Shown: piece by piece, positions 7,748-36,590 of the stretch
Numbering within the stretch: the stretch's first letter is position 1
Layout of the letters: the number at the start of each line of letters is the position of its first letter
Origin: Calditrichota bacterium
GTDB taxonomy: Bacteria > Zhuqueibacterota > Zhuqueibacteria > Thermofontimicrobiales > Thermofontimicrobiaceae
Assembly (NCBI GenBank): GCA_013152715.1
Contig: JAADFU010000001.1
Coordinates: forward strand, 1-43,422
DNA length: 43,422 nucleotides
Reading direction: 5' to 3'
Translations under genes and position numbers: made by a program
Notes under the pieces: generated by a model
What the model was told of the DNA's origin: nothing
Seen by the model: only the letters and a program-made list of their open reading frames with translations
The model's database searches: none

Positions 7748-10702
7748 TTACTTCAACAAGAGCAATTTTTTCGTATTTTTGTATTTTCCGGCAACTTCCA
7801 GTTGATACAAATAAACGCCGGTGCCGACAATTTGTCCGCTCTGATCCCTGCCGTTCCACTGCACTCGATGTGTACCGGCAGTTCGCAGGCCACTTTCGAG
7901 CGTTCTGACAATTTCGCCATTAATATTGAAAATAGTCAAGTTAACGTTGGCTTTTTCCGGCAGATTGTAACTAATGCTGGTTTCCATGTTGAACGGATTG
8001 GGAAAATTTTGCTTCAATTCATAACGATCCGGCACCATGGCTTCTGTGGTTGGCGTTTCCACGGCAGAAACACTACCCTCAAAAATTTCGACGTCATCGA
8101 TCAAAGCGCCGATGGACGGATTCTGCCCGTCAGAGACAAAATGAAATCTCACGTACACCTTCGTGACACCTGACGTAATCAAATCACTCAAATCCACCAC
8201 ATGCTGCTGCCATTTGGCGTAGTAATTTCCTGTCATGGTGTACAATTTCTGCCAGTTCACACCATCCGTGGAAGCTTCAACGTACAGGAAATCTTTATCC
8301 GCTTCGATGAAATATTTTGCCCAGAATTTCATCTTCATCGCATTAATCGTGGTCACGTCAAATCCGGGCGTAAAAGTCATCATCGCGTCCATGTTGTTGT
8401 TGTAGGGCACTTTGCCGCCATTGACATGAATGGATTGGCCGCCTGAATGAGCGGACATTTTTGTCAAGCCCCAACCGCCGGAGAGATTCCAAAAGCCTGT
8501 TTCATTTTCAAAATCATCCACCAAATTGGAAACATTCGAGGCTGAATGAAAACTATTGTTGTAAGTATTGTAGTCACCGCTAAAATTTGGCAGCGAAATG
8601 TCAAAATCAACCTGGCCTGACTCAGTAAACAGATATGGCTTGAACTGCACCACTGTTTCCCCCCAGGAAGCCAAAGAAGTGATTCGAGAAGTATCCTGAT
8701 AAATGATGCTGCCGTTCTGCGTACCGGTAATTACCAAGTCAACGTTTGTCTCGGTGCTGGCACCCTCGTTGCGGATTTTCGCGCCCAGAGAAATCGGGAA
8801 AAATAATGGAATGCTCTGTCCTGGTAAAGTGACATCAGTTAGCGACAAATCATGTTGCGGCAACGCTACATCTATCTGCCAGTTAAAGCTCAAAATTTCC
8901 GGATTATTAGAATTGTAATCCAAATACACAATTCCTTTGTAGCTGCCGGCATCTAATTTTTTGGCATTGATAATCAAACCTAATTCAGCAGTGCCATTGG
9001 GCTGAATAACGCCAACGCCATTTTCCAGATTAAACCAATCAGTAACGAACTCTGCGCCTTTACCATTCCGGACTATCGTACTATCATCGTCACCATGGTT
9101 TTCATAAATTGTATTTGAGCCGTCGGCAACCTGAATTTCGTCAACAAAGAAACCTTTTAAACTCGGATCATCCGGCGTGCTGTAGCCCATGTCTGAAGCC
9201 AGCGCAAAACGGATGATGACGCTGTCTGATTTGAAAGCTGACAGATCAAACTCCGCAGGCTTCCAGCCATAGCTTTGACCGCCCCAGCCGGGGATCCCGA
9301 TTCCGTAATTCCAGCCTTGTTCCGGATGACCGAAACTCCACATACTCTGGCAGTTGTAGGCTGGTGTCGTCGGCTGCAGGACAGAATATGTGGCGCCGCC
9401 GTCAATAGAAACCCACACATTGCAGCCATCCCAACCGTCGTAATTCGGATCAGCATCTGAAGCGCCGGCAGGATCTTCCACCGCCCATTTTACCAAACAA
9501 TCCAATTTTGGATTAGTCGTTGTTGTCAAATCAAGCATTGGCGTTTCCATCCATTGCAGCCAATGATCCTGATAGCCGCCGATTTCCGGATCGCCGCACC
9601 ACCATGATTGACCGTCGTATGACTCAAAGTCATCAGTGTGGAAGAAAAATTTAGTCAAATAATCGGTCGCGGCGTAGTACAGTGGCTGTGAACCAGTATT
9701 TTTCAAATTTACCAACTGGACGACGGAGTCACCGCGCGTGAATGAGTATTGGTATTCGTTCTGTTCCAAGGAAAGAGAACCGTTATTGGTCAACCCGTCC
9801 CAAATAAATGGGCTCCAACTTCCCATATTGCTATTATTCCACTTAATGCGAAAATACCCTTTCTCGCCCCAATTTTTTCCCCAGCTATTTTTAACGATCC
9901 AACATTGTAAATCGTCTTCCCAGCCCACGATCAAAACTGCGTGCCAACCAATAGACTGGCCGTACACATGTTCGTAAACGCCGCTGCTGTAAGCATTGAA
10001 ATCCTCGAACACTTCGTAGCTAACAGACAACGGGTGCAAATAGACCGCATTTTTTATTTTTTGTATGTCAACTTCTTCCTGAGTCACATATCCCCAGCCG
10101 GGTATTGTGATTTTTTTACTTTCCCAGCCATCGCGGACACTGTCGCAGGGGACAGTATCGTCGGCCTGATATGACATATATTCTTCCGGAGGAACGCCGG
10201 TGTCTTTAATGAAGTCCAGCGCTCCGGAAATTGACCATCCGTTACAAGTTCCGCCGGAGCATGATAAGACGAACTGTTCCGATAAATCAATGGTAGTATC
10301 CGGTAGATTATTTTTTATTTTCCACCACGTTTCCACCTGCGCCACTGCGGAAAAATCCCAGCAGCTTCCGCAATTTGCCTGGTTCGTGACCGGCGTCAGC
10401 CAGTCGCCATTATTATTTCTCCAGTCAAATTTTGCGGGGAGATCATTTTGCGTTGGCAGCTCAATTATTTTGGCCTCCGAAGGATTGGGATGTTCGGGAA
10501 TAGTACCAAGTAATTTGATTTGTTCTTCGCGCGGCAATCTGGTGACCCAATTCTCCCCGGCTGTCCAGCTCGCGCCTTTCGCTTTAATTGCCTGCTGTAT
10601 TTGGCTAATTTCAGTATTGTCCATCGCCGATGAAATTCCAAGCAAACAGTACAACAAAAACAGAACCGAGAATAGAACAAAAAATTGCTTTTTCTGGAAC
10701 AT
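7748..10702 (-). CDS. Secreted papain-family (C1A) cysteine protease with C-terminal sorting domain
   Basis: A 984-residue exported protein. Residues 1-26 are a signal peptide and 27-88 a short propeptide-like region. A C1A peptidase domain spans about 90-300. The catalytic set is visible: Gln108, Cys114 in NCGSCWDF, His254 in GWHAV and Asn272 in VKNSWG. The middle (about 310-640) contains a MAM/jelly-roll-like region that describes a fused adhesion or substrate-binding part. A CARDB-like beta segment around 640-760 and another jelly-roll-like domain before about 890 follow. The last 85 or so residues, starting at QNFPNPFN and ending in KKLLLLK, form a FlgD-Ig-like domain, as in type IX cargo. 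A CAGGAG Shine-Dalgarno supports the ATG. It is monocistronic, with its own terminator, and divergent from the Omp85 genes. Peptidase identity is firm; the export route is inferred. Confidence 0.93.
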   Translation of the reverse strand: MFQKKQFFVLFSVLFLLYCLLGISSAMDNTEISQIQQAIKAKGASWTAGENWVTRLPREEQIKLLGTIPEHPNPSEAKIIELPTQNDLPAKFDWRNNNGDWLTPVTNQANCGSCWDFSAVAQVETWWKIKNNLPDTTIDLSEQFVLSCSGGTCNGWSISGALDFIKDTGVPPEEYMSYQADDTVPCDSVRDGWESKKITIPGWGYVTQEEVDIQKIKNAVYLHPLSVSYEVFEDFNAYSSGVYEHVYGQSIGWHAVLIVGWEDDLQCWIVKNSWGKNWGEKGYFRIKWNNSNMGSWSPFIWDGLTNNGSLSLEQNEYQYSFTRGDSVVQLVNLKNTGSQPLYYAATDYLTKFFFHTDDFESYDGQSWWCGDPEIGGYQDHWLQWMETPMLDLTTTTNPKLDCLVKWAVEDPAGASDADPNYDGWDGCNVWVSIDGGATYSVLQPTTPAYNCQSMWSFGHPEQGWNYGIGIPGWGGQSYGWKPAEFDLSAFKSDSVIIRFALASDMGYSTPDDPSLKGFFVDEIQVADGSNTIYENHGDDDSTIVRNGKGAEFVTDWFNLENGVGVIQPNGTAELGLIINAKKLDAGSYKGIVYLDYNSNNPEILSFNWQIDVALPQHDLSLTDVTLPGQSIPLFFPISLGAKIRNEGASTETNVDLVITGTQNGSIIYQDTSRITSLASWGETVVQFKPYLFTESGQVDFDISLPNFSGDYNTYNNSFHSASNVSNLVDDFENETGFWNLSGGWGLTKMSAHSGGQSIHVNGGKVPYNNNMDAMMTFTPGFDVTTINAMKMKFWAKYFIEADKDFLYVEASTDGVNWQKLYTMTGNYYAKWQQHVVDLSDLITSGVTKVYVRFHFVSDGQNPSIGALIDDVEIFEGSVSAVETPTTEAMVPDRYELKQNFPNPFNMETSISYNLPEKANVNLTIFNINGEIVRTLESGLRTAGTHRVQWNGRDQSGQIVGTGVYLYQLEVAGKYKNTKKLLLLK

Positions 10703-18963: not shown

Positions 18964-19260
18964 TTAAGACAAAACGTAAACATCGTCTTTCTTCTTGGTA
19001 ATGTGAACCGATTGGCCGAAATGCAGCGGAAAAATTTCCCAGAACGGCTTTGCGTCGATGCGATAATTCTGTTGCGGTTTCTTGGGCCCCATCGTCCAAA
19101 CTTCATGCGGTTGGATCGTCGTTTCAAATTTTTTGTCTTTGACCTTCAACGTGAAGGGTTTCCCGATCTTCGGGAAAAAATCCAGCTTGTTTTTTACGAT
19201 GGCAATGTAACGCTCTTGCGCTTCTTCACCCGAGATCTTGCGACGATACTCTTCAGCCAT
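18964..19260 (-). CDS. Uncharacterised 98-residue protein upstream of the rhomboid gene
   Basis: I do not recognise this small basic soluble protein. The ATG at 19260 is preferred over one at 19284 because a GGAGG Shine-Dalgarno lies seven bases before it. The chain begins MAEEYRRKISGEEAQERYIAI, so a helical start is likely, followed by beta-rich segments (GKPFTLKVKDKKFETTIQP, VHITKKKDDVYVL). No signal peptide or membrane segment is present. The six-base gap to the rhomboid gene suggests one transcript, with a possible role in the same process. Confidence 0.75.
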   Translation of the reverse strand: MAEEYRRKISGEEAQERYIAIVKNKLDFFPKIGKPFTLKVKDKKFETTIQPHEVWTMGPKKPQQNYRIDAKPFWEIFPLHFGQSVHITKKKDDVYVLS

Positions 19261-19398
19261 AAAACCTCCGCCGTTTTTGATCAATAATTTTTTTCGATTT
19301 GGGGAATACCCATCTTCAGTTGCTGAAAACCGTCTTTTGAAATATAGGAAAAGAATCGGGCAAAATCAAGCACTTTCTTTGGGAAAAAAGCAATTCGG

Positions 19399-19457
19399 AA
19401 GATGTAGTCCACCTGCGAGGTGGACTACATCTTGAATAAAATTCGTGCAAACCCGCG
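19399..19457 (+). repeat. Perfect 16-bp palindrome plus ATCCGTG-type repeat (copy D)
   Basis: AAGATGTAGTCCACCT (19399-19414) and its exact reverse complement (19418-19433) flank the triplet GCG. GAATAAA follows, then ATTCGTGCAAACCCGCG at 19441-19457. The element lies between the LysM gene and the 98-residue gene, both on the minus strand, and would form a very stable hairpin in RNA from either strand. No T-run follows on either side. Confidence 0.7.
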
Positions 19458-19563
19458 TTCTGTCATCGGAGTTTTGTCTAAACTAAAAAAGTTGGCTTCC
19501 GCCACTAAAGACGAAAACCAACTTTGCATGATAAGAGGGGAAAACTTGAAGCAGAAAAACTAC

Positions 19564-20310
19564 TTAATCCACCAACACATCTTCCCGGTCCCGTTTGCCA
19601 AATGAAGGAACAAATTCCTCATCTTCATCCGCTTGCCCCATTTCGATGTCTTGTTCCTCATCATCTTCCGGTTCAAATCTTTCCATCTCGTAGTGACGTT
19701 TGCGACGCACCAGATACCACGCCATCACGCCCACAATTAATCCAATCGCCACAATCGTCAAAATGATCGGAAAAAGACTTGACTCTTTCACATCGCTTTC
19801 AGCGGCGCCATTTTCGACAGCAATTGCCGGAACGGGCTCGGCTGCGACTTTTTCAGTTTGTGCTTCCTCGCTCGGCGGCGCAACTGATTTTTCCGCGGAG
19901 GTCTCCGTAGCTGTTTGTTGCTCCTGAAGCTGTGTTTGTGACGCTAAAGGCGTCGTGGAGACGTTGTGATTTTTCGCGATCCAATCTTTCTGATCTTCCA
20001 CAATTGAATTCACCCTTGTCAGGCTCCGGGAATGATGCAATTTCTTGACCGCATCCAGATTGGGAATAATCACTTCTTCCCCGGGAAAAACCAAATCTTT
20101 ATTCGGCGCGCGATTCACCAACGCCAATTCGCGCCAATACTTCGTGGTTCCGTAGTACTGTTTGGACAATTTGCTGAAATAATCGCCCTTTTGAATGATG
20201 TGTTTCGTCGGCTCATTGAAGAGCATTTTTTTACACCACAGCAAATTCTCTTCCGAATACATACCGACAACCACCGTGACCAGTATGAAAATAACCAGTA
20301 ATTTCTTCAT
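19564..20310 (-). CDS. LysM-domain membrane protein
   Basis: A 248-residue protein with an N-terminal signal or anchor segment (1-19). A LysM domain lies at about 35-85 (HIIQKGDYFSKLSKQYYG to NRAPNKDLVFPGEEVIIP) and is predicted to bind peptidoglycan. A low-complexity linker rich in Glu, Ala, Thr and Pro follows at about 115-175. A transmembrane segment spans about 179-201, then a very acidic tail (DDEEQDIEMGQADEDEE). An AAGGAGG Shine-Dalgarno precedes the ATG. Topology suggests an inner-membrane protein that touches the cell wall in the periplasm and carries a charged cytoplasmic tail. Its function is unknown. Confidence 0.82.
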   Translation of the reverse strand: MKKLLVIFILVTVVVGMYSEENLLWCKKMLFNEPTKHIIQKGDYFSKLSKQYYGTTKYWRELALVNRAPNKDLVFPGEEVIIPNLDAVKKLHHSRSLTRVNSIVEDQKDWIAKNHNVSTTPLASQTQLQEQQTATETSAEKSVAPPSEEAQTEKVAAEPVPAIAVENGAAESDVKESSLFPIILTIVAIGLIVGVMAWYLVRRKRHYEMERFEPEDDEEQDIEMGQADEDEEFVPSFGKRDREDVLVD

Positions 20311-20524: not shown

Positions 20525-21637
20525 TCATTGCTGAAAGTAATTGGTAATTTTTACATACTTTCGACCAATCCAGCCAATGCGGCGGCGCTTCAATTTAATT
20601 TTCACCCAACCACCATATTCCGCGAGCACAATAAACTGCTGCCCTTTCTTCGCAACCGCTACCACCGGAAAATTTACGCCCGGGCCAGAACGAATATTCA
20701 ACTGCCCAACTTTGACTATGGCTCGAGGCGGCGAGTGTTTGGCTTTGGATTTGAAGCTAATGGTAACATCAAAAACATGAGATAATTCATTACTGAGCTG
20801 GTGATTCAAAACAGCGTAATTCAAACTAAAAACCATGTTTCTCAACTCTTGCACCAAACCTACGCCTAACGCCAATTGATTTTCCTGCCACCCCATTCTT
20901 AACCGCAGCGGAGAGGAGATTTTGACTTCAGTGCCCGCTGAAATGATATTTTTGCTGCGATAACCAACTGCAACGAGCGCTCCCGGCGCTAATTCGTAGG
21001 AAACACCCACACTGCCCACCTTTTCGAAATGGTCTGCGTGTCCGGTTTCCCACGCCAATTTTTCCCGAAAATCATTCAATGAAGCGCCAACGCTGAGTTT
21101 TTCTCCTAATCTGTAAATGAATCCAAAGTCGACTCCCCAGCCGGAGGCATAGTGCTCATCCAATGTTTGACGAAGCAAATTAGCCGAAAATCCCAGAGCA
21201 AGGCTCCCACCGATTCTTCTGGCATAAGTGAGACCGACCATCTGTTCCACGTTGTTAAAAAGATAATCCGACTGTGCCGTGTTGGACGATCTCGCTTCAA
21301 TATCATTAATCAAAAATCCTTTCCAGAAAACGCCAAATTTATCATTCCTGTCCACGGGAAGGACTACTGAAACGAATCCGACTTGACGATTGAATGCGAT
21401 TCTCGCATGACTCATGCCAACAAAAATATTTCGCGAGAATCCGACGCCGGCCGGATTCCGCTGACCCGCCAGATAATCTTCACTGACCGCCACAAAAGAC
21501 GATTTGAACACCATCGCCCTCGCGCCGACGCCAAAATTGGTAAAAAAATTCTTCTTCTTATCCGCCGCTTCAAGCGTCAACGCGTTTAACACAAACACGG
21601 CTAACAATATTATTTTCAATATCTTACTTCTCATCAT
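20525..21637 (-). CDS. PorV/PorQ-family outer-membrane protein with C-terminal SH3 domain
   Basis: A 370-residue outer-membrane barrel. The start is taken at ATG 21637, after GCGGAGAAA; the first residues form a signal peptide ending near EAAD. The motif FGVGARAMVFKSSFVAVSEDYLAGQRNPAG is the N-terminal signature of the PorV/PorQ-type proteins, whose PorV member is the outer-membrane shuttle for type IX cargo. The barrel runs to about residue 300. The final 65 residues (VGQLNIRSGPGVNFPVVAVAK to GWVKIKLKRRRIGWIGRKYV) form a bacterial SH3 domain, which usually binds peptidoglycan or peptides. It lies 16 bases after a small FN3/sorting-domain gene. Which member of the PorV/PorQ group it is cannot be told. 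Confidence 0.82.
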   Translation of the reverse strand: MMRSKILKIILLAVFVLNALTLEAADKKKNFFTNFGVGARAMVFKSSFVAVSEDYLAGQRNPAGVGFSRNIFVGMSHARIAFNRQVGFVSVVLPVDRNDKFGVFWKGFLINDIEARSSNTAQSDYLFNNVEQMVGLTYARRIGGSLALGFSANLLRQTLDEHYASGWGVDFGFIYRLGEKLSVGASLNDFREKLAWETGHADHFEKVGSVGVSYELAPGALVAVGYRSKNIISAGTEVKISSPLRLRMGWQENQLALGVGLVQELRNMVFSLNYAVLNHQLSNELSHVFDVTISFKSKAKHSPPRAIVKVGQLNIRSGPGVNFPVVAVAKKGQQFIVLAEYGGWVKIKLKRRRIGWIGRKYVKITNYFQQ

Positions 21638-21653
21638 TTTCTCCGCATTAAAA

Positions 21654-22319
21654 TTAACGCACCACTGCAATCGTCACCACTTTCACAATAAAGTCGTAGC
21701 GAATCACAGCAAAATAGACGCCATTGGACGCTACGGCTCCTTGTTCATTTTTACCATCCCAAACATCTTCGGTGTGCTCGCCCGCTGGCTTGCGAGTCAG
21801 AGGCAGTAGCTGCCGCACAAGTTCATCGTTCACATCGTAAATGTCAATCGACACTTTGCTTGTTTGTGGCAGAACATAACGAATTACTGTTCTCTCTTTG
21901 TCCGGATTGAAAGGATTGGGAAAATTGTACGCCCTGCCGTCATCGCCGGAGCCGGGCTCTGTATCAGGTTGATTTCTTATTTCAAAATAGACTTCTTGCG
22001 AAAATTTGCTCTCATTGCCGGCAGTGTCGTAGGCAGTCACGGCAAAAAAATAGCCGCCTGGCGATAAATTTTCTATCGGGCATATCGTATCCGCCCCCGC
22101 TGCCTTCCAGTGGCTGTAATTTCGCGATTCCGTACCCCAGTAAACGCGATAGCCGGCGACGTCTTTTTCCTGATTTCGATTCCACTGGACAATCACGGAA
22201 TGCCCGGACAATAAAATCCAGAATAATAAAATGAACACAATGTTCAAATATTTTTTGTGACGATGTACTCCATTTTCCGGTTGGAGCGCATCTTTCGTAT
22301 TTAAATATTTTTTTTCCAT
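21654..22319 (-). CDS. Small secreted FN3 protein with FlgD-Ig sorting domain
   Basis: A 221-residue exported protein. A hydrophobic segment at about 24-42 serves as a signal or anchor. A fibronectin type III-like domain spans about 43-115 (VQWNRNQEKDVAGYRVYWGT to GGYFFAVTAYDTAGNESKFS). The last 90 or so residues begin at YNFPNPFNPDKERTVIRY and end VKVVTIAVVR, the FlgD-Ig pattern of C-terminal sorting signals. The ATG at 22319 is followed by a long basic stretch before the hydrophobic core. It is first in a pair with the PorV-like gene, 16 bases apart, so cargo and shuttle-like protein share a transcript. Confidence 0.78.
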   Translation of the reverse strand: MEKKYLNTKDALQPENGVHRHKKYLNIVFILLFWILLSGHSVIVQWNRNQEKDVAGYRVYWGTESRNYSHWKAAGADTICPIENLSPGGYFFAVTAYDTAGNESKFSQEVYFEIRNQPDTEPGSGDDGRAYNFPNPFNPDKERTVIRYVLPQTSKVSIDIYDVNDELVRQLLPLTRKPAGEHTEDVWDGKNEQGAVASNGVYFAVIRYDFIVKVVTIAVVR

Positions 22320-22879
22320 CGACTCTTGTTGTCAATTTCCTGGCTGTTTATTGGTGGAGTGAAGAGATACGTTCCGCCTCTGAGGGGGAGCGTATCTTTA
22401 AAAAAAATGCTAACTTTCTACTCGTCGTTCTCAGTTGCTAATGAAATTAATCATCAAATACAAAACTAATGCCATAAAAAAAATATGCCTTTCAGGCAGA
22501 AAATGTCCTTTGTTTTTATGAAGTTAGAATTGTACTATTTTGTAAAGCAAATATTTTCAAGCAACAAAGCTAGGTAATTTTTTCTCAATTAGCGCTTTTG
22601 TGGGAAAATTTTACACAGTGGGAAGTTTGACAAAATGGGACAACAACAAAATCAGGGGAAAGACAGGATGCCTTTGCCGGAAGTTAGCCAAAAATGAAAT
22701 TTCTTTGCCGCAACGCCGAAAAATTTGCGCGGCGCTCGCGATTTAGCGCTCTGCCAAAATTCAGATATTTTTGCCGCTAATATTTTTTTCTTGGGGGACC
22801 GACCAGCAACTTTTTTAAATTAGCGTTTTTCACAATCTCATTTTAGTAGCAGAGGCTAAAGTTTCAAAAAAGCTATTTT
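22320..22879. other. 560-base intergenic region
   Basis: No convincing gene is seen. It is AT-rich and lies between the yhaM gene and the FN3 gene, both on the minus strand. It holds a strong hairpin at 22365-22397, a small one at 22486-22498 (TGCCT, loop TTC, AGGCA), and a GC-rich degenerate stretch around 22705-22760. Near 22800-22860 nothing is recognisable. The promoter of the FN3-PorV transcript should lie in the right part. Confidence 0.5.
22365..22397. repeat. Palindromic hairpin sharing a core with the 19399 palindrome
   Basis: AGATACGTTCCGCCTC (22365-22380) pairs with GAGGGGGAGCGTATCT (22382-22397) at 15 of 16 positions, counting one G-T pair. Its centre TCCGCCTCTGAGGGGGA aligns with TCCACCTGCGAGGTGGA of the 19399 element. 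No T-run suited to termination follows. Confidence 0.6.
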
Positions 22880-36481: not shown

Positions 36482-36543
36482 AAATATCTCTCGTGATCGC
36501 GGCTTCAATCGTGAAAAAAATCAAAAACTTCTCAACGCAAAAG

Positions 36544-36565
36544 ACCCGGGGCAACCGGGTTTTTT
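36544..36565 (+). terminator. Terminator after the debranching-like gene
   Basis: ACCCGG (36544-36549), a GGCAA loop and CCGGGT (36555-36560) are followed by five T. It lies 63 bases after the stop, in the gap before the convergent isomerase gene. Confidence 0.75.
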
Positions 36566-36590
36566 GCAAATATTCACGGGAAAATCCGGA

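Follow-up and report, generated by a model that had tools for sequence, protein, structure and literature searches.

The perfect palindrome at positions 19399-19433 of the window, by which we mean the whole analysed stretch of 43,422 nucleotides, raises the question of what kind of element it is and how it came to lie between two genes of a Calditrichota bacterium. Its arms AAGATGTAGTCCACCT (19399-19414) and AGGTGGACTACATCTT (19418-19433) are exact reverse complements of 16 bp around the loop GCG, just as an earlier note on this DNA had read them. The note let the feature run on to 19457; its start stands, but the palindrome stops at 19433 and the remainder is unpaired flank. GTAG and CTAC, a 'double foot', bracket TCCACCT-NNN-AGGTGGA, and the outer arm AAGAT/ATCTT is paired as well. 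The palindrome, to which no strand is assigned, has a length of 35 bp and a loop of 3, and lies within the size range of REPs (palindromes of 20-40 bp with a small loop). Among perfect stems with loops of 3-8, the longest in the window measures 16 bp, and the longest in each of 40 dinucleotide shuffles 8-13 bp. Trained on 14 other copies, and on neither of the two window hairpins, a covariance model recovers the palindrome in the 43 kb at E 4e-11.

Counts of the sequence in the host genome, a check that the earlier note had proposed, reveal a dispersed family. The 35-mer, with at most 3 mismatches, occurs at nine places (control: 0), and the palindrome core at 46 (control: 7). The core is thus present beyond the two window sites; its restriction to them, which the note had named as the refuting outcome, did not occur. 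Model R1, with 17 seeds including both window hairpins, yields 120 rows over both strands of the 4.15-Mb genome, corresponding to at least 65 places at E <= 0.1, at least 61 at E <= 0.01 and at least 55 at E < 0.001; the number of 65 is a lower bound because 150 out of 1029 first-look candidates were scored. A leave-out model without the window copies (R2) recovers 47 of the 47 non-seed places searched and one new place, in stretches which had been picked using R1. The idea that the palindrome is due to chance is refuted by this genome-wide family: both the 35-mer and the core recur, the family occupies at least 65 places, and the stem exceeds those of all shuffles. Nothing speaks for chance in the case of the window copy, although a single match in Rhodococcoides may be of that kind.

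Two sequence types can be distinguished, which differ at pair 9 (G-C in 23, C-G in 26 and another state in 5 out of 54 copies of 35 nt). Type I reads GTAGTCC...GGACTAC and type II GTRCTCC...GGRGYAC; the window copy belongs to type I and, like this type in general, carries the foot GT[AG]G on both strands, while type II has GTAC or GTGC. A second hairpin of the window (22364-22398, no strand assigned) shares the geometry of 16+3+16 and is possibly a diverged copy. The earlier note had counted 12 of 17 core positions in common between the two hairpins; our recount gives 13 of 17, and the resemblance amounts to a weak match, with E 0.016 in 43 kb for the 14-copy model trained on neither hairpin. 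The low E-values of this hairpin in other searches are explained by its presence among the seeds of the model used there.

Pairing between the arms is better preserved than in shuffled data, and covariation, the check for compensatory changes that the earlier note had proposed, is higher as well. In an alignment of 53 copies, 91.4% of the cells are paired (shuffled: 82.9%), 96 cells are double changes (shuffled: 41.8), and the score for covariation reaches 0.367, compared with 0.204 in shuffles that leave the relatedness of the copies in place; none of 500 shuffles scored as high. The number of pair types does not exceed that of the shuffles (26 versus 24.7; 132 of 500). At positions 4, 9, 11 and 15 both arms change together; most copies have the same 3-nt loop, and the closing pair is mostly T-A.

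In G001, a genome from the genus of the window, 17 copies have an orthologous gene end at 70% identity or more, pairs below this value being left out. At six of these places the model recovers a copy in the same position (E <= 0.05), and three more copies are recognised by eye only (C105, C25, C203). No copy is present at four places (C1, i.e. the window copy, C125:21560, C7, C180), and at another four a T-tract hairpin is found instead (C20, C121:8682 and the C125 pair). The nine orthologous pairs comprise 49 changed stem pairs, a count that includes the poor alignments of C203 and C25: 7 changed on both sides and are paired, 17 changed on one side and are paired, and 25 are unpaired. In G003, G004 and G005, 40 stretches were compared with the model, and none matched at E <= 1. 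These results indicate that copies persist, with decay, within the genus but not between genera. In G001, the window copy itself is missing beside both flanking orthologues; this place was rejected as an exact empty site, since both flanks are kept without the palindrome but lie on separate contigs with broken synteny, and no clean-ended empty site of the window copy was seen. As to the earlier suggestion of selection on the fold, the excess of pairing over the shuffles agrees with it, but the 25 unpaired changes do not, and such selection is not proven; as we infer, matched arms could also result from the recent spread of perfect copies or from correction by template switching.

The position of the family relative to genes was evaluated for 64 sequenced copies of the 65, with simple ORF calls as genes. 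In 58 copies, any overlap with a called gene is at most 20 bp. Of the 64 copies, 37 follow a stop codon at a distance of 25 bp or less, and 40 at 60 bp or less; among the 58 intergenic copies, 36 are at most 25 bp behind a stop, a position taken by 21% of copies placed at random in intergenic DNA (p 2.5e-11). The type of gap is not special: 34 copies fall into tandem, 15 into convergent and 6 into divergent gaps and 9 lie at edges, and the background gaps of the same stretches are 42 tandem, 15 convergent and 8 divergent. The family therefore shows both the dispersed extragenic copies and the preference for gene 3' ends that characterize REPs.

The window copy lies, as the earlier note had placed it, in the gap between two minus-strand genes, at a distance of 130 bp from the upstream stop codon. 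The upstream gene (19564-20310, minus strand) encodes 248 aa with a weak LysM match slightly below the Pfam cut-off. The downstream gene was called as an ORF of 106 aa (18964-19284, minus strand) from a TTG at 19284; its start is probably the ATG near 19260, which follows a GGAGG and is kept in relatives. This ORF is without family match, and orthologues exist in four of six relatives from the same family. On the minus strand, a terminator-like hairpin with a T tract (19488-19525), situated 3' of the LysM-domain gene and kept in G001, precedes the palindrome, and a promoter-like site of the downstream gene, TTGATT-17-TATATT (19341-19369, minus strand), comes after it. The promoter-like element is recognisable in G001, G003, G005 and G006, with no palindrome ahead of it there. 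Between terminator and promoter, the window copy probably has little effect. Elsewhere, the window contains another terminator-like hairpin, GCAAAAGACCCGGGGCAACCGGGTTTTTTGC, at 36537-36567, as well as type IX secretion features at 7748-10702, 20525-21670 and 21654-22319 (a PorV/PorQ-like protein and secretion-tail or FlgD-like domains).

In a wider set of genome contigs, at least 120 stretches contain the exact core, with its 22 fixed or two-way letters. Most of those listed belong to Candidatus Kapaibacterium PH2015_12D_48_15; the other hosts listed are KSB1, Ignavibacteriales, Bacteroidetes, Calditrichia, Fodinibius and CSSED10-310, and once, possibly by chance, Rhodococcoides. Outside the main Kapaibacterium genome, all 29 copies (27 stretches) have exactly paired arms of 13-18 bp with differing outer letters, a search for only 11 bp of arm having led to them, and 19 of the 29 are located at most 25 bp from a stop. 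The main Kapaibacterium genome is different in that the core forms part of three longer repeat families, which differ in their inverted ends. This holds for 81 of the 101 copies with 120 bp on either side, namely 68 in element A, 9 in B and 4 in C; the other 20 are unclassified. Both ends of element A, TATACT...AGTATA, could be read in 34 copies, 24 of which measure 105 bp. One copy, L118:151 (loci L047-L165), is a chimera with a left half from A and a right half from B, and is counted in B.

Which enzyme could have spread the palindrome? The earlier note had proposed a search for an associated REP-type transposase (RAYT). Matches to NCBIfam NF047646, which covers RAYTs in general, are present in 35 out of 40 genomes, 22 of them above the cut-off, whereas a family match at E <= 0.01 exists in 14 of the 40, the window's own included; hence, the repeat cannot be predicted from the mere presence of a RAYT. 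All nine genomes reached through loci have family matches, these genomes having been selected for presence of the core. Family copies occur at 2 of 60 loci around RAYT matches. In the Bacteroidetes genome UR.bin72, a RAYT of 183 aa (L069:965-1516) is surrounded by eight family copies; the next copy contains its stop codon, and three of the stretches between copies duplicate about 80 nt from the 5' end of the RAYT gene. In G004, from the window's own family, a RAYT remnant is followed after 48 bp by a family copy. Copies flanking a RAYT, the arrangement known as a REPtron, are thus found in UR.bin72 and at the G004 remnant; in the window's own genome they were not found. With regard to the earlier note, an associated RAYT exists in Bacteroidetes, but the window copy has none next to it, and the host's own RAYT is from another clade.

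With the UR.bin72 RAYT as a query against 20 genomes, 12 were matched at E <= 1e-6; neither the window's genome (G000) nor G001 was among them. Because no RAYT of this clade was found in the window's genome, the host copies are probably orphans. In a tree of 31 RAYTs, the UR.bin72 protein belongs to a clade of eight (support 100/99), six of which have matched palindromes of their own on both sides; the exceptions are L287, without palindromes, and L290, with a different hairpin on one side. The arms vary from RAYT to RAYT (for instance ACGTGCCAGGCACTT, ACGTGACCGTCACCT, AGCTTTGCGAAACCT, ACTAACCCAATTTCT), and the geometry and the closing YT-NNN-AR are common to them. An automated test for palindromes on both sides was positive for 5 of 30 RAYT ORFs and 1 of 49 other genes; owing to over-called ORF starts, the test missed L326 and L328, which were counted by eye instead. 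Some cognate palindromes even lie within the transposase: three in the RAYT frame of G005 (L329:1684-1833), which is left open, and one in the RAYT gene of G038 (L328:1678-1710).

Several other candidates were rejected. The single RAYT above the cut-off in the window's genome (C204) has neither a family copy nor a stem of 9 bp or more in its 3.2-kb stretch, and belongs to another clade. The IS200-type gene near the C131 copy is an IS200 TnpA, no copy of its own ends was tied to the family, and we regard it as a mere neighbour; at this locus (L028), the TnpA gene starts about 215 bp from the family copy, and a hairpin similar to an IS200 end lies beside the copy. A hairpin near a RAYT match in G028 is a different palindrome, GTGCAACGCACTT. 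Independently of these, a possibly foreign contig was noticed in the window's assembly (L027, G000:C23), with a Y1 transposase and ORFs that seem more G+C-rich than those of the window.

Based on these data, alternative origins and roles of the palindrome can be weighed. A functional RNA hairpin of any origin, retained as a terminator or as a stabiliser of 3' ends, would account for copies that lie 3-20 bp behind stops and for the four of 17 orthologous places in G001 that carry a T-tract hairpin instead. Yet an intrinsic terminator was rejected because the T tract in gene sense is missing: at least 5 T in the tail of 8 bases are present behind 5 of 37 copies, compared with 14.3% of control tails. 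Likewise, RNA-level constraint in gene sense was rejected for the 27 copies with a single gene in reach, since G.U and A.C mismatches are balanced there (23:21, p 0.88), and Rfam yields no match at the gathering score or at E <= 1. The 12 copies in convergent gaps, with two gene ends in reach, show a ratio of 19:5 (p 0.007) in the sense of the nearer gene; whereas the single-gene result is against selection at the RNA level, this one leaves room for it. The window copy, 130 bp past the stop and behind a terminator-like hairpin, fits this explanation poorly. Altogether, we regard it as unlikely; copies 3-20 bp behind stops may nevertheless serve incidentally as candidate 3' mRNA hairpins.

The missing gene-sense bias of the single-gene copies, together with the strand symmetry of the sequence, would equally suit a double-stranded site bound by a chromosome-organising or regulatory protein. 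We consider such a site very unlikely, as the sequence is freer than the pairing, with positions 4, 9, 11 and 15 covarying between the arms; moreover, the loop is constant in most copies, with mostly T-A as its closing pair, and the cognate palindromes of the other RAYTs are alike in geometry but not in sequence. The Kapaibacterium copies, in turn, suggest a miniature transposon with terminal inverted repeats, mobilised by an unrelated transposase, given that 81 of 101 cores sit within repeats with inverted ends. As an explanation for the host genome this is highly improbable: in the rows read, the copies share no common flank past the palindrome and have no target duplication, no inverted ends or target duplication were visible by eye around the window copy in the flanks of the copies read, and the 20 unclassified Kapaibacterium copies do not speak for it either.

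The reading we favor, with a probability of about 0.74, is that the window palindrome is a copy of a double-foot REP, whose family was presumably spread by a RAYT of the UR.bin72 clade and is probably orphaned in this host. The earlier comparison with REP-like palindromes is borne out by at least 65 dispersed copies, the covariation of their arms and the Bacteroidetes RAYT flanked by eight copies. According to this model, a RAYT of the UR.bin72 clade, i.e. a single-strand transposase of the HuH/Y1 type, would have recognised the hairpin in single-stranded DNA, cut it and rejoined it at new places, the repeat being a non-autonomous passenger; the copies of the host genome would then have been inherited vertically, with slow decay. 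A further idea is tentative and rather doubtful: a RAYT clade of the FCB phyla may act on fully symmetric palindromes (arms of about 15 bp, three free bases, YT/AR closing), with an arm sequence particular to each RAYT and the core GTAGTCCAC(C/T)T as a portable module. If this were true, symmetry would make either strand a possible substrate, the core would serve in solo REPs (KSB1), in RAYT-flanking REPs (Bacteroidetes) and as the centre of the three Kapaibacterium element families, and the A/B chimera would have been joined at the core.

According to these results, uncultured FCB phyla harbour a RAYT-linked REP family, with a single core common to solo REPs and three longer repeat families. 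The RAYTs, each accompanied by a perfect palindrome of its own, form a natural series that offers material for the question of how RAYTs recognise REPs. The open-licence literature searched yielded no report on REPs in KSB1, Kapabacteria or Ignavibacteria, which is no proof of absence. The RepRanger survey (2025, PMC12306157) describes REPs across phyla together with stop-codon distances; a word search of its main text gave neither KSB1 nor Kapabacteria.

In the published descriptions, REPs are short palindromes that follow ORFs at a distance of less than 20 bp, and RAYT genes are flanked by cognate REPs (PMC3733652, PMC6006769); REPs in single-stranded form are cut at CT steps, guided by GTAG (PMC8266576). 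For GTAG repeats, Di Nocera et al. (2013, PMC3733652) report Proteobacteria, Cyanobacteria, Chloroflexi and the PVC group as hosts; CGTC repeats are listed there for Chlorobi and Bacteroidetes. Our family resembles the GTAG-tagged REPs as described in that source in its length of 20-40 bp, loops of 2-4, extragenic position, often less than 20 bp past the 3' end of an ORF, GTAG foot and link to a RAYT. It differs in that their tag is unpaired and at one end, whereas GTAG here pairs with CTAC within arms of 15-18 bp, and type II lacks GTAG. Like REPINs (Bertels and Rainey 2011, PMC3116915), the repeats are non-autonomous units tied to RAYTs; unlike them, most copies are single palindromes, and spacer-paired units occur beside the UR.bin72 RAYT. 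Deletion between two REPs is named in the same paper as a source of long single palindromes. Judged by eye, the motifs of the UR.bin72 RAYT (NHFH, FQ, YIHQNP) are a mixture of those listed for subclasses 2.1, 2.4 and 2.6 (PMC6006769). With TnpAREP 2.4 and with 2.6, the subclass described as having 'atypical secondary structures', our RAYTs share in-frame REPs in the transposase gene (G005) and copies elsewhere (PMC6006769). In agreement with the double-foot REPs of subclass 2.4 (Quentin et al. 2018, PMC6006769), whose hosts include Bacteroidetes, the palindrome has GT[AG]G on its 5' side and the complementary motif on its 3' side. Taken together, the match to described REP features leads us to propose a new REP family, orphaned in this genome, for which a RAYT of other genomes is a plausible partner.
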